NCBI RefSeq assembly: GCF_012396015.1
Contig: NZ_JAAXOQ010000002.1
Location: forward strand, 1 to 64,000
Direction of reading: 5' to 3'
DNA from: Tsukamurella spumae
GTDB lineage: Bacteria > Actinomycetota > Actinomycetes > Mycobacteriales > Mycobacteriaceae
Length of the DNA: 64,000 nucleotides
Shown here: in pieces, positions 3,806 through 10,283 of the stretch
How the letters are laid out: every line of letters begins with the position of its first letter
Position numbering within the stretch: position 1 is the first letter of the stretch
Translations under genes and position numbers: made by a program
Notes under the pieces: generated by a model
Database searches by the model: none
Seen by the model: only the letters and a program-made list of their open reading frames with translations
Told to the model about the DNA's origin: nothing

Positions 3806-5062
3806 TCACTTGTACTGCGGCTTACCGTAGTTCGGGTTGTTGCCGGTGGGGATGGCGATGTTGATCGGCCGGAAGCCGCCCAGGTACACGAGCTCGAAGG
3901 TGTTCGCGAGCTGGTCCATCTGGCGGTACAGCTCGGGAGGGAGGGCGGCCTGCGTGAGCCCTCCCTCGCGGATGGCCACGTAGGTCGGCCAGGTCGCGGT
4001 GAGCAGGCCCTGGTACAGCGGCTGCGGCGGCAGCTGCATCCAGTCGGTCAGCTTGTCGCCGAGGGAGTAACGGGTGAACGCCTCGATCGCCGGCCGCGAG
4101 ACGATCCGCCCGTCGAGGTCGCGACCGAGGTCCATCAGCATGTTCGCGATCTTGACCCCCTCGGGGGTCGGGCCCATGATCGTGTCGAGATCCCGCTGTG
4201 CCTGGCGCTCGGCCTGGTCCCAGCTCGACGGGATGTACTCGTCGCGGATGCCCAGCATGTGCCCGTTGACCTGCCAGGAGTGCAGCAGCCCGTCGACCTC
4301 GTCCTGCGGCAGGTGGACACCCCAGTTCCGCATGATCCGCATGCCCATGGTGGCGAGGGTGTGCCAGGTGACCATCATGTCGGCCTGCGAGATGGGCTTG
4401 GGCTGGTCGGCGACCTTGCGCCAGTGCGGTGACTGCGGCAGCAGGTGTCGCACGGCGCCGTGCGTGAGGCGGACCTTCACCGCGGTGGTGGCGGCCCGTC
4501 CGTTGGGGCCGTACGCGCCGACATTGATCTGGTCGTACACCAGGCGGTAGGTCTTCGCGATGCGGTCCTTCATGTCCGCTCCGCCGGCCGACCAGTAGAC
4601 GGCCCGCGACTCGCGCGGGATCACCGACATCATGATTCCGCCGCAGAGCCCGATGATCGTCGAGAGGTAGAAGCTGCGGGTGGTGTAGAACGTGTCGGCG
4701 CCCTTCATCAGGCGGGGGTCGAGCCACTCGGGGAGCTTGCGCGCCTCCTCGATGAAGTCCCGGACGTCCGACGGCATGCCGGCGGGAACGGGCTGCGAGT
4801 TCGTCGTCCACTGCGCGAGAGCGCGATTCGTGCGGTCGACATCACCGCGCTCGAGCACGGACTTCATGAGTGCGTCGCACTCGGGATCCCAAGTCGTGCG
4901 GGAGTCCGGGGTGGTGCTGCTGCGGACGCCGGGCTCGGCGGAGGCGAGTCCGGTGCCGAGGGTGCCCGCCAGTGCGGCGACGCCGGCTCCGGCTACTCCC
5001 ACGCCCGCCACGCGTAGCGCGTCGCGCCTGCTGATGCCGTCCTGTACCGCGGTCCTGTCCAC
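3806..5062 (-). CDS. TAT-exported oxygenase, MpaB/latex-clearing protein-like (DUF2236)
   Basis: About 418 residues from the GTG at 5062, which has GAGAGG 8 bases upstream; an ATG at 5110 would add 16 residues before the leader. The N terminus is a twin-arginine leader: SRRDALRVAG, then an Ala/Gly/Val-rich stretch ending ASAEP. The body matches the DUF2236 family (oxygenase MpaB; rubber oxygenase Lcp), with the characteristic KVRLTHGAVRHLLPQ helix, which supplies conserved polar residues at the b-type heme pocket in Lcp. Lcp enzymes cleave polyisoprene outside the cell; the substrate here is not deducible. Monocistronic, convergent with the FBP gene. Confidence 0.75.
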   Translation of the reverse strand: MDRTAVQDGISRRDALRVAGVGVAGAGVAALAGTLGTGLASAEPGVRSSTTPDSRTTWDPECDALMKSVLERGDVDRTNRALAQWTTNSQPVPAGMPSDVRDFIEEARKLPEWLDPRLMKGADTFYTTRSFYLSTIIGLCGGIMMSVIPRESRAVYWSAGGADMKDRIAKTYRLVYDQINVGAYGPNGRAATTAVKVRLTHGAVRHLLPQSPHWRKVADQPKPISQADMMVTWHTLATMGMRIMRNWGVHLPQDEVDGLLHSWQVNGHMLGIRDEYIPSSWDQAERQAQRDLDTIMGPTPEGVKIANMLMDLGRDLDGRIVSRPAIEAFTRYSLGDKLTDWMQLPPQPLYQGLLTATWPTYVAIREGGLTQAALPPELYRQMDQLANTFELVYLGGFRPINIAIPTGNNPNYGKPQYK

Positions 5063-6899: not shown

Positions 6900-6919
6900 C
6901 GGTGTAGTCGCTCACGCAG

Positions 6920-6940
6920 GGTATGCGCCTGCTGCATACC
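6920..6940. promoter_or_regulatory. Inverted repeat GGTATGC-N7-GCATACC, operator 1
   Basis: Perfect 7-bp arms separated by seven bases, upstream of the PadR/membrane-protein operon. A second copy with the same spacing lies at 6978-7000, centres 59 bp apart. PadR regulators bind short dyads of this kind (ATGT-N8-ACAT in classic cases), so self-regulation by the PadR encoded downstream is likely. Confidence 0.6.
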
Positions 6941-6977
6941 CCCGTCATGCCTGGTCAAGGCATGTTTCACGGCTGGA

Positions 6978-7000
6978 GGCTATGCGTTGCTTGCATAACC
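6978..7000. promoter_or_regulatory. Inverted repeat TATGC-N7-GCATA, operator 2
   Basis: GGCTATGC, seven bases, GCATAACC: the same TATGC-N7-GCATA core as 6920-6940. It lies just upstream of a plausible promoter (TTGTGC at 7016-7021, 17 bp, TATATC at 7039-7044), in the place expected for a regulator-binding site of this operon. Confidence 0.6.
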
Positions 7001-7015
7001 TCGCGGCCAAAGGCG

Positions 7016-7044
7016 TTGTGCCCGGTCGTCACGACTGCTATATC
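7016..7044 (+). promoter_or_regulatory. Candidate promoter of the PadR/membrane-protein operon
   Basis: TTGTGC, 17-bp spacer, TATATC, in the most A+T-rich stretch of the area. A Shine-Dalgarno AGGAG follows at 7067-7071. Confidence 0.4.
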
Positions 7045-7076
7045 TAGATACAAATTCGATCTAGGTAGGAGTCGAG

Positions 7077-8075
7077 ACGAAGGCGAAGGACTTCGCTGAG
7101 CGGGACGAGAAGTGGGGCGCACGCTACCTCGTCACGCTCGCGTGGCAGGACGGCGTCGATCGTGACCTCGTCGTCGCTCGGCAGAACGAGCTCGTCGACT
7201 CGATCGAGGCCGCGGGGGTCCCCGCTGAAGAACTGTTCGGCGATCCAGTCGTTCTCGCCCGGTCCGACGCTCTTGAACTCGGTACCGCGGAGGCGGACGC
7301 GGACGCTGCTGAGAGTCTGGGCATGCGCGACGTCTTCGCCCTGTGTGCGGCGGTCCTGCTCGTGATGGGAATCGGGTTAGGCGGGATGTTCCTGTTCGAC
7401 GGGGGAGGCCCCGTCGACGTGGGTGTCGGTCCGCTCGCACTCGGGGCGGGCGTCGTGACGTGCCTGATCGCGGGTTCGGCGGCGGTGTCCTTCTACACCG
7501 CCGGGCGGGTGCGTACGGCGACGAGGCTGGCCGTCGGTGCCCTGGGCGCAGTGGCCGCCGGCGCAGTCGTCGCTGGAGTGGTGGGATCGGACGCCGTACT
7601 GATCACGGGCGCGCCCCGGTGGGCGGTCGCGGTCACGTTCCTACTTCCGAGCGCGTTTGCATTCGTGGCCTGGCGGCTCGTGCCGCCGCGGACGCCGCAG
7701 ACTGCGTGGACCGACGACGAATGGTTCGAGCGTTTCCGGGGAACCCTGCGTGCCAAGGGGGTTCATTGGAAGATCGCGGCGGACTACGAACGCAACCTGC
7801 GGGCGGAGCTGATGACCACCGCGTTCGACGACTTCGGGGCGCCCGGCGCGATCGCGCAACGACTCGCGGGTGATGCGTCCGGTGCATCGGGTCGCTACTG
7901 GTGGCGCGTGCCGGCGTTCTACCTCGTGCTGGCGGGTCTGTGGGGCCTCCTCGCGATCGATGCCGACGGCTTCACGCGATTCACGAGCGCGGTCCTCGGT
8001 GCTGCCTTTCTGTACCTCGCAGCCGTACAGCTGAAGCGGGCGCGGAAGGCCCGGTTGCGCAGGGCGACCGCATGA
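7077..8075 (+). CDS. Polytopic membrane protein with HAAS-like segments; apparent ACG start
   Basis: About 332 codons. The frame is open from the TAG at 7062, and codons 7077-7322 show strong third-position G+C bias, so the coding region begins well before the first ATG at 7323. No ATG, GTG or TTG exists in frame before 7323. AGGAG at 7067-7071 is spaced five bases from ACG at 7077, so this codon is either a rare ACG start or a mutated ATG. The N-terminal 80 residues (YLVTLAWQDGVDRD, EAAGVPAEELFGDP) and a second soluble segment near 210-265 (LRAELMTTAFDDFGAPGAIAQRL) resemble the helical sensor region of HAAS/DUF1700 proteins. Four helices lie between them and two follow. The stop overlaps the PadR gene by 4 bp. 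Confidence 0.7.
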   Translation, partial: TKAKDFAERDEKWGARYLVTLAWQDGVDRDLVVARQNELVDSIEAAGVPAEELFGDPVVLARSDALELGTAEADADAAESLGMRDVFALCAAVLLVMGIGLGGMFLFDGGGPVDVGVGPLALGAGVVTCLIAGSAAVSFYTAGRVRTATRLAVGALGAVAAGAVVAGVVGSDAVLITGAPRWAVAVTFLLPSAFAFVAWRLVPPRTPQTAWTDDEWFERFRGTLRAKGVHWKIAADYERNLRAELMTTAFDDFGAPGAIAQRLAGDASGASGRYWWRVPAFYLVLAGLWGLLAIDADGFTRFTSAVLGAAFLYLAAVQLKRARKARLRRATA

Positions 8076-8398
8076 GCAGCGCCGCGTGGCAGCGGGCGAC
8101 CTTGCCGCTCCTGATCCTCGGCGTGCTGGAGACCGCGCCGCGGCACGGGTACGGCGTCTCCGCCGCGCTGGTGGGGGTGGGGCTGCAGCCGATCAAGGGC
8201 GCGCAGCTCTATCCCGCGCTGGTGAAGTTGGAGAACGACGGGGCCATCGTCGCGGAGTGGGAGCAGAGCGAATCCGGTCCCGCGCGCAAGGTCTACCAGC
8301 TCACGGACAGCGGCCGCGCCGAGCTGGCCCGCCTACGCGAGGAGTGGCGCGAGTTCACAGCCGCCGCAGCCGCGCTCGGGGCCACGTCAGCGCGCTGA
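8072..8398 (+). CDS. PadR-family transcriptional regulator
   Basis: 108 residues, starting in an ATGA overlap with the membrane-protein gene. Winged-helix PadR signature: LPLLILGVLETAPRHGYGV at the start, GAQLYPALVKLENDGAIVAEWEQ recognition helix and wing, then KVYQLTDSGRAELARLREEW. It lacks a long C-terminal dimer domain, as in the small PadR-s2 class. Translational coupling with a HAAS-like membrane protein is a recurring arrangement in which the membrane protein is thought to modulate the regulator. The GGTATGC-N7-GCATACC dyads upstream are the likely operators. Confidence 0.85.
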   Translation: MSSAAWQRATLPLLILGVLETAPRHGYGVSAALVGVGLQPIKGAQLYPALVKLENDGAIVAEWEQSESGPARKVYQLTDSGRAELARLREEWREFTAAAAALGATSAR

Positions 8399-8452
8399 GT
8401 GCAGACCAGGTTCCGAAGGCGGCTGCATCAACGCTGTTGGGGCACTACGAGA

Positions 8453-8485
8453 ACGGAGGGGATGCGTTGGACGCATACCCTCCGT
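8453..8485. terminator. Bidirectional hairpin between convergent genes
   Basis: Arms ACGGAGGG-G-ATGCGT and ACGCAT-A-CCCTCCGT around a TGG loop: 14 paired bases per arm with a single G/A mismatch. It lies between the padR stop (8398) and the convergent hydrolase pseudogene stop (8519). Its centre also reads GATGC-N7-GCATA, resembling the operators at 6920 and 6978. Confidence 0.65.
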
Positions 8486-8518
8486 GAACGACTACCACCC
8501 CGCAGCGGGGCCGATGAT

Positions 8519-9390
8519 CTACTGCGACGCGGCCTGCGGCAGCTCGACCACAGGGTTCCGCTGCAGGAACGAGGTGATCAGCGCGGCGAACTCGCTCGCG
8601 CACTCGAGCTGCGGCATGTGGCCGACGCCCGGAATCAGGTGCGTCTCCGCGTGCGGGATCAGCTTCCGGGCGTTCTCCAGGTGCGCGGGCGGCAGCACCG
8701 CATCGCGCGAACCCCACAGCACCATCGTGGGGCGCGGGGTCGTCGCGATCGTCGCGTGCAGCTCGTCGCGCCAGCCCGGAAGGATGCCGCGGCGCACCGA
8801 GCCGAGGAGATCCGCGGTCTTCCACGCGGTGAGGCCGGCGTCGGTCTCGCGGGCGATGGCCATCGCGTGGTTGACCCGGGCGCGGGTGGCGTGCGACTTG
8901 TCGGCGAAGATCAGCCGCTCCTGCAGGATCGCACCCGGCCGGCTCGGCGTGGTCGCGATCAGCTTGCCCAGCACGGGAACCCCGAGCAGGCGCAGCAGCG
9001 GCGTGACCTCGGAACCGAAGCCCGCCGGGTCACGAGCGTCATCGATGCGACGAGTTCGGGGCGCTGGGCCAGCAGCGTCATCGTGACCGCGCCGCCCAGC
9101 GAGTTGCCCGCCACGTGCACGGGGCCGCTCACCTCGAGCGTGTCCAGCAGCTCGCCCACACCGCGGGCCAGTGCCGCGAGCCCGGCACCGTCGGGATGCG
9201 GCGCGGACCAGCCGTACCCGGACAGGTCCGGCGCGATGAGCCGGTACTGCCCGTTCAGCGCCTCGAAGGTCGGGTCCCAGTCCTCCAGGCTGCGTGTGAT
9301 GCCGTGCAGCAGAACCAGAGTGGGCAGCGACGCATCGCCGGACGTGCGTACTCGCACCCACCGGCCGCGCACGGGGATCCGAGAGATCAT
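8519..9390 (-). pseudogene. Alpha/beta hydrolase, frameshifted
   Basis: The N-terminal part from the ATG at 9390 reads LVLLHGITRSLEDWDP, APDLSGYGWS and the nucleophile elbow AGNSLGGA. After LVASMTLV the frame breaks near 9028-9031. The C-terminal part continues in another frame as DPAGFGSEVTPLLRLLG and on through VLWGSRDAVLPP and IPGVGHMPQLE with the catalytic Asp and His. Inserting one base restores a continuous hydrolase of about 290 residues. All catalytic residues survive, so the lesion is recent or a sequence error. The start overlaps the stop of the upstream hydrolase by 4 bp; last gene of a four-gene operon starting at 12323. Confidence 0.8.
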
Positions 9391-10283
9391 CGGTTCGACT
9401 CGATCCACTCGAAGGTCGCGTCGGCCAGCGGTCCGGGGTTCTGCGCCACCACCCAGTGTCCGCCGGGTACGGACACGTGCCGCGAGCGCGGCGACTTGTC
9501 CAGGCCGGCCAGCTGCAGCGGCGGCGTCACGAACAGATCGCCCTCGGGGGTGATCACCTGCACCGGAACGGAGGTCGTCGCCTCTGCGGGCTTGAGGAAC
9601 GGGCCGGGCATGTTGGCGCGGTACAGGTTCAGGCCGTTGGTGAAGTCACGCTCACTGCGGACGTACCCCTGCGCGACCTTGCCGCCGGTGCCACGCTTCT
9701 CCAGCGTCTCGATCAGCTTCTGGCCCCAGCCACGCTTGTACAGCGAATCGGCGAGCCCGGGCGCGAGGAAGAACGGGATGTACGTCGAGCCGGCGGCCTG
9801 GCGCAGCCGCGCCGGCACGTCCTTGAGCCCCCTGACCCCCTGCAGGTACTCGCCCGCGTGGTTGAGGTTCGGCCCGGAAACCGATGTGTACGACGCGGTC
9901 TTGTCCGCCACCGCCGGATCGACGACTGCGTGCCAGCCCTGGATGGAGCCCCAGTCGTGGCCGATCAGGTGCACCTTCGACCGATCACCGCTCACCTCGC
10001 GCACCGCGTCGATGACTCGCGAGATGTCGGAGATGAGGCGGTCGAACCGGTATCCGGACTTGCCCGCCGGTGCCTCCGATTCGCCCGCGCCGCGCACGTC
10101 GTAGCTGTACACGTTCGCGCGGCCGTCGAGCGCCGCGGCCACGCCGTCCCATACGTGGTGGTTGTCCGGGTAGCCGTGGATGGCGAGCACCGTCGGGCGC
10201 GCCGCGTCGTGGGTGCCGTAGCGGAAGCCCGCCAGGGTGAGGCCGTCGGACGTGGTCACGTCGAAGCGGTGCTGGTCAGTCAT
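9387..10283 (-). CDS. Alpha/beta hydrolase, epoxide hydrolase/dehalogenase-like
   Basis: 298 residues. HGYPD oxyanion region at 36-40, SYDVRGAGESE at 60-70, nucleophile elbow GHDWGS at 108-113 with Asp110 as nucleophile (the haloalkane-dehalogenase/epoxide-hydrolase type, not serine), ITPEGDLFV acid region and a C-terminal GGHWV histidine near 274. Cofactor-free soluble enzyme; substrate unknown. Follows the ferredoxin-type reductase by 10 bp and overlaps the next hydrolase, so probably a pathway partner of the oxidoreductase and metal-dependent hydrolase. Confidence 0.85.
   Translation of the reverse strand: MTDQHRFDVTTSDGLTLAGFRYGTHDAARPTVLAIHGYPDNHHVWDGVAAALDGRANVYSYDVRGAGESEAPAGKSGYRFDRLISDISRVIDAVREVSGDRSKVHLIGHDWGSIQGWHAVVDPAVADKTASYTSVSGPNLNHAGEYLQGVRGLKDVPARLRQAAGSTYIPFFLAPGLADSLYKRGWGQKLIETLEKRGTGGKVAQGYVRSERDFTNGLNLYRANMPGPFLKPAEATTSVPVQVITPEGDLFVTPPLQLAGLDKSPRSRHVSVPGGHWVVAQNPGPLADATFEWIESNR

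Follow-up and report, generated by a model that had tools for sequence, protein, structure and literature searches.

Genes and features at the locus

The stretch of DNA analysed here (the window) comprises 64,000 nucleotides, positions 1 to 64,000 of contig NZ_JAAXOQ010000002.1 of Tsukamurella spumae. It carries a gene for a probable membrane protein, probably a sensor and termed HAAS-like below, and a gene for a PadR-family regulator, with four bases (ATGA) shared between the HAAS-like stop and the ATG of the regulator. The HAAS-like frame is open from 7065 to its stop at 8073-8075 and is preceded by an in-frame TAG at 7062-7064, and its first in-frame ATG, GTG or TTG is the ATG at 7323. The place of a start codon behind a Shine-Dalgarno sequence is occupied by ACG. 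The features are as follows.

7016-7044, forward strand: probable promoter, read by eye, TTGTGC (7016-7021), 17 nt, TATATC (7039-7044)
7041-7064, no strand assigned: operator-like inverted repeat, CTAGAT (7044-7049) and ATCTAG (7059-7064), putative PadR site
7067-7071, forward strand: Shine-Dalgarno sequence AGGAG, kept in six of seven leaders and changed in that of genome G010
7077-7079, forward strand: ACG at the start-codon place, with ATG in the same column of six of six orthologues
7077-8075, forward strand: gene for the HAAS-like probable membrane protein, 332 codons and a stop, defined by the open frame and by orthologues
7077-7322, forward strand: N-terminal HAAS-like domain and linker, indicated by dN/dS and fold matches and missing if the gene is called from 7323
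7323-7325, forward strand: internal ATG, the first in frame, common only to T. pseudospumae
7704-7910, forward strand: second, C-terminal HAAS-like domain with a GxP motif at residues 254-256, indicated by profile comparison and model helices
8072-8398, forward strand: gene for the PadR-family regulator (Pfam PadR, E 2.2e-20; dN/dS 0.165)

Coding signal upstream of the first usual start codon

The earlier note had described 82 codons free of ATG, GTG and TTG from 7077, a well-spaced AGGAG in front of ACG, and coding bias from the same position, and all three descriptions hold. A run of 82 codons lacking a start-type codon has a probability of 0.6% at this codon usage, and the gap between AGGAG and ACG is 5 nt. 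Scored by the codon usage of the genes of this contig, codons 7077-7322 reach +0.28 bits/codon, against −0.26 for the best of 2,000 base shuffles, −0.39 and −1.59 for the other forward frames, and −1.45 for the same frame upstream (6900-7064); the best reverse frame, likewise without stops, gives +0.17, nearly as high as the coding frame. The signal is strong at ∼7077-7226 (about the first 40 to 50 codons) and weak at ∼7197-7290, the linker. The predicted folding of the leader (−12.2 kcal/mol here and −11.6 to −15.2 kcal/mol elsewhere) does not set it apart.

Start codons were compared in 56 gene pairs from one contig (GC3 and identity filters retained 95 of 472 reciprocal matches); the true number of genes is slightly below 56, because at least one row (8520-8891, forward strand) is an antisense frame. 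Every pair shares some ATG, GTG or TTG column, which for the HAAS-like gene is the internal ATG 7323. An unshared upstream start was flagged in six of the 56 rows. Conserved residues ahead of the first shared start number 65 of 82 in the HAAS-like gene, and 15 of 64, 31 of 77, 21 of 59, 0 of 2, and 4 of 7 in the other flagged rows. The HAAS-like gene is therefore the only one of the 56 pairs in which a conserved stretch has a Shine-Dalgarno sequence and a start in one species and no start in the other, and there is no general use of ACG starts within this one-contig sample.

Orthologues and the ancestral start

The search set consisted of 16 Tsukamurella genomes, this one and 15 others, with one genome per species, and the HAAS-like gene was found in seven of them. 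The six other orthologues have ATG at exactly the column of ACG, in closely similar leaders; that of T. pseudospumae shows no difference between −45 and the start codon. The protein is 74% identical to its counterpart in T. pseudospumae JCM 13375. Over codons 2-82, dN/dS against this species is 0.194, with 10, 5, and 29 differences at the three codon positions, and because of this low ratio and the third-position excess, the segment is regarded as protein kept by selection. Further along the gene, dN/dS is 0.33 for codons 83-200, 0.17 for codons 201-290, and 1.02 for the last 42 codons. The latter (7947-8072) appear replaced or scrambled relative to T. pseudospumae, their differences being equal across codon positions.

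Since ATG occurs in six of six orthologues and codons 2-82 are conserved as protein, the alignment identifies ATG at 7077 as the ancestral start. It was this alignment that the earlier note had proposed as a check, naming as contrary evidence orthologues that start at 7323 and lack conservation of 7077-7322; the alignment gives the reverse, ATG at 7077 and conserved codons (dN/dS 0.19). The statement that a call from 7323 would lose the N-terminal domain is likewise borne out, both by conservation and by a predicted DUF1048-like fold. Gene finders restricted to ATG, GTG and TTG would call the gene from 7323 and so hide both the lost start and the domain, which orthologue alignment recovers.

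Use of ATG 7323 as the start of the gene, whether now or from the beginning, is very unlikely. This codon is the first usual in-frame start, it occurs in T. pseudospumae too, and it may be the best start left in this genome, yielding a truncated product. As the ancestral start it is excluded, there being no Met in this column in the five orthologues outside T. pseudospumae; two further points against it are that 69 of the first 85 alignment columns are identical in T. pseudospumae when the first residue is taken as M, and that codons 2-82 are under purifying selection.

Beyond Tsukamurella, no full-length match to the HAAS-like protein was obtained in 61 relatives or in 298 genomes of the order. 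Seven of the 61 relatives matched, all of them Tsukamurella. Matches in three of the 298 genomes, a draw that did not include every Tsukamurella genome and in which seven candidates were scored per listed genome, were to this genome, G010, and a 59-residue C-terminal fragment (E 7e-4). A plasmid search gave no match.

Distribution of the operon in Tsukamurella

The squalene/phytoene synthase gene upstream of the operon is kept in all 16 Tsukamurella genomes, and the hydrolase-region sequence downstream was matched in all 16. Between them, the operon is present in seven genomes, and at the sensitivity used eight show no trace of it, the synthase gene being followed closely by the hydrolase region. 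The remaining genome, G003, holds a remnant (L040 ∼3870-4040, on contig C50) in which the operator-like site, ATG, and the last part of padR surround a deletion of ∼1.2 kb. With eight of the 16 genomes lacking it and no more than a remnant left in G003, the operon is, on the evidence of these genomes, dispensable in the genus. In G010, the squalene/phytoene synthase match (L086, C1:498761-499432) contains one in-frame TGA.

Domain identity of the HAAS-like protein

The N-terminal part of the protein, folded alone, is predicted to form helices at residues 2-22, 29-46, 50-54, 57-68, and 71-80 (mean pLDDT, 80.7). Its best two structural matches, with Z scores of a size that helical bundles can reach by chance, are DUF1048 entries: 2o3l (Z 7.3, rmsd 2.8, 67 residues) and 2o4t (Z 6.3, rmsd 5.3, 66 residues); the next row, which is unrelated, has a Z of 5.1. 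The paper that defined HAAS unifies it with DUF1048 (2O3L) and describes a three-helix domain, kinked at a GxP motif, that is always accompanied by a PadR-like regulator (PMC11237479). The predicted fold of the N-terminal domain has three helices with the third kinked at GxP, here G55-D-P57, of which G55 and P57 are invariant in all seven orthologues, and a standalone PadR-like wHTH gene is adjacent in all seven. The model and these features support the assignment of the N-terminal part as a HAAS-like domain. Profile comparison relates a second, C-terminal domain, located after the central helices, to the first (E 2.7e-5; probability, 74.5%). The model of the full protein (pLDDT 72.2, pTM 0.44) contains long helices at residues 83-107, 117-141, 145-169, 181-201, 277-294, and 299-331, and the product is probably a membrane protein.

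The Pfam HAAS profile (PF22564) stays below its curated cut-off, which none of the 16 genomes reaches; the lowest E values come from one C-terminal member (0.066) and one full protein (1.6), and the seven N-terminal domains give none. For this reason, the protein is called HAAS-like and is not filed under PF22564. The label given in the earlier note thus agrees with the predicted fold, the GxP motifs, and the PadR neighbour but not with the Pfam profile. Scans of the HAAS-like protein against Pfam and NCBIfam placed no family above cut-off. Searching the PDB by sequence with the profile of the N-terminal part returned methyltransferases (E 0.0012, ∼49 residues), which were judged unrelated on the fold search. 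The long-helix and transporter chains returned by a fold search with the full-length model, in whose best 50 rows DUF1048 did not appear, were taken as uninformative.

Organization and putative regulation of the operon

The junction of the HAAS-like and padR genes is ATGA or GTGA in all seven operons, and an overlap of four bases is a typical sign of translational coupling (PMC10666635). The TTG and TAT of the candidate promoter are kept across the seven aligned leaders; a consensus promoter scan found nothing at this place. The inverted repeat CTAGAT/ATCTAG extends into the probable −10 region. When at most two mismatches are allowed, the pattern of the repeat is found at the operon in six of 16 genomes and at no other place, and the reversed-pattern control gave none; in the seventh operon (G013), both halves are altered together. 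From its position and pattern, the repeat is a probable PadR operator. A literature search for PadR with the repeat TATCTAGATA returned no match. Self-repression by PadR-type proteins has been reported for LltR, LstR, and LftR of Listeria (PMC6624303), and by analogy the HAAS-like and PadR genes probably form a small self-repressed operon. As its operator-like site was found nowhere else in its genomes, the operon offers a handy case of how feedback and coupling might buffer a damaged start.

Two further observations concern the operon and its flanks. First, dS between this operon (7065-8398) and that of T. pseudospumae is 0.50 and 0.48 for the two genes, about twice that of the adjoining synthase gene (0.24); in the 56-row table only 75339-76055 approaches this value (0.499). 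The operon was possibly exchanged by recombination. Second, three GC-rich hairpins lie on either side of the operon, at 6910-6950, 6970-7008, and 8444-8494, and share the core TATGCN7GCATA, in one case with a mismatch. Compared with shuffled sequences, folding is better for two of them (z −3.9 and −6.4) and only weakly so for the first (z −1.5); they are without a T tract and may be terminators.

Nature and timing of the codon change

Among the seven orthologues (one genome per species), ACG is private to this genome. The earlier note had offered a T-to-C mutation as one option, and the difference goes beyond a lone T-to-C, as codon 2 also differs at two positions: relative to T. pseudospumae, the bases at +1, +3, and +5 (numbered from the A) differ, and they are the only ones to do so in a run of 87. 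For three differences to fall within 5 bases of this run, which is bounded by the nearest difference on either side, the probability is ∼0.005, the interval having been chosen post hoc. Together, the three differences make an exact tandem, CGAAGGCGAAGG; exact tandem hexamers are found at 0.19% of window positions. This pattern suggests that the start was changed in one local copying (templated) event. It stays a suggestion because the ancestral state at +5 is uncertain: three of the five other orthologues have G there, and the difference may be derived in T. pseudospumae.

An error of sequencing or assembly, with ATG in the real chromosome, is unlikely but carries appreciable weight. ACG occurs in a single genome, a draft in 79 contigs, and is one of two private lesions no more than 2 kb apart. 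The other is in the hydrolase-like gene (∼8519-9420, reverse strand), which is a single frame in T. pseudospumae and other relatives and is broken here where one base near 9032 has been deleted, a lesion seen in none of the seven aligned relatives. The coincidence of frameshift and ACG can be due to chance, to local decay, or to a poor stretch of sequence, and it was because of the frameshift that we raised the odds of an error to this level. The site, in contrast, lies outside long homopolymers; with codon 2 differing at two further positions, an error must either adjoin true changes or have hit several bases; and the absence of any other lost start among the 56 pairs also counts against it. 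A frameshift survey of the contig found nine genes of relatives that lie in two frames here and three reverse cases, as well as 97 indels, each with a length that is not a multiple of 3, in coding-like frames, many of which look spurious, compensating, or due to paralogue matches; among these candidates, the hydrolase case alone was checked against the seven relatives.

The HAAS-like frame contains no stops and has the same length as in T. pseudospumae. Over codons 2-290, 17 residues are derived on this branch and 13 on the sister branch (25 ambiguous; P = 0.58). From the stops and indels expected, with an indel rate of 0.043 per substitution outside the filtered genes of the contig, any inactivating change would fall within the last ∼18 to 37% of the branch (95%; branch lengths of 0.25 to 0.12). 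We infer that the start was lost late on this branch if the change silenced the gene. So late a loss would leave no trace of relaxed selection and no further lesions.

Probable consequences for expression of the operon

The reading that we favour, with a probability of roughly 0.55, is a recent loss of the start by change of ATG to ACG, leaving a weakly expressed or dying gene; of the three options in the earlier note (use of ACG, a mutation weakening the gene, or a sequence error), a real mutation that weakens the gene fits best. All six relatives keep a start codon at the site, no other such loss was seen among the 56 gene pairs, and purifying selection on codons 2-82, the lack of an excess of derived residues, and a frame without stops or length change are as expected of a recent event. 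Against this, an intact frame and an unaccelerated protein are equally expected from a start that is still used, and the second private lesion 2 kb downstream makes a stretch of poor-quality sequence thinkable.

In the proposed sequence of events, the ancestral ATG would have turned into ACG late on the branch, as one of a few closely spaced changes. Ribosomes would start at ACG rarely at best, so that full-length protein would be scarce or absent, and initiation at 7323 may supply some of a truncated form. PadR, with a start codon that overlaps the HAAS-like stop, would lose part of its coupled translation and, as its level falls, its own promoter would be relieved of repression. The operon, being dispensable, may be on its way out, as has apparently already happened in a sister species (G003).

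The same circuit admits another outcome, in which ACG is a used, attenuating start: a drop in PadR would open the repressed promoter, and the extra transcript would offset the weak start, so that function is kept. We consider this distinctly unlikely. ACG is found in none of the six orthologues, so that the conservation of an odd codon among relatives that marks a functional start is lacking, and the operon is dispensable in the genus. To our knowledge, there is no established natural ACG start in bacteria, and a literature search for bacterial ACG start or initiation codons, as far as the text of the records was available, yielded none that we recognised, the matches being mostly organelle, viral, eukaryotic, or engineered constructs. 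Nevertheless, the Shine-Dalgarno sequence is strong and at a good spacing, the gene is intact and unaccelerated, silencing (if any) is confined to the last ∼18 to 37% of the branch, and both the operator-like site and the overlap of four bases are consistent with feedback and coupling. Weak natural starts are also tolerated elsewhere: AUU and AUA starts of Staphylococcus aureus give ∼10% of the AUG reporter output in poor medium and, for one such start, up to 30% in rich medium (PMC13009471). If ACG is used, the overlapping autorepressor would buffer the damage, and the circuit would tolerate a start codon as weak as ACG.

Comparison with known systems

The locus resembles the described dyads of HAAS and PadR-like wHTH proteins in its predicted three-helix GxP domain adjoining a standalone PadR-like regulator, in predicted long helices that resemble membrane spans, and in the predicted match to DUF1048 entry 2O3L; it differs in having two HAAS-like domains per protein, below the Pfam HAAS cut-off (PMC11237479). 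The lltR operon of Listeria likewise joins a PadR-type repressor and a membrane protein of the HAAS-related DUF1700 family (PMC6624303). Feedback on its own promoter has been shown for lltR (PMC6624303) and is proposed here by inference. Unlike lltR (PMC6624303), the operon described here has the reverse order, with the probable membrane protein first and the genes overlapping.

Among non-canonical starts in S. aureus are AUA in infC, AUU in cvfC1, and AUA in ccpN, and the available part of that study does not mention ACG (PMC13009471). As in these three genes, a non-ATG codon stands here behind a good Shine-Dalgarno sequence at the head of an intact frame. infC, cvfC1, and ccpN, however, keep the odd codon across species, whereas ACG is private to this genome and six relatives have ATG; citZ has its odd codon, AUA, within one S. 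aureus lineage only (PMC13009471).

Compared with other losses of genes through start mutation, the likeness is that relatives keep the start, this genome is without it, and the gene is dispensable, and the difference is that the HAAS-like gene carries no second lesion as yet and that its silencing is putative. Bacterial genes are known to be lost through mutation of the start codon. The instance is new, and its kind, the loss of a start codon in a HAAS-PadR-like operon, is ordinary.
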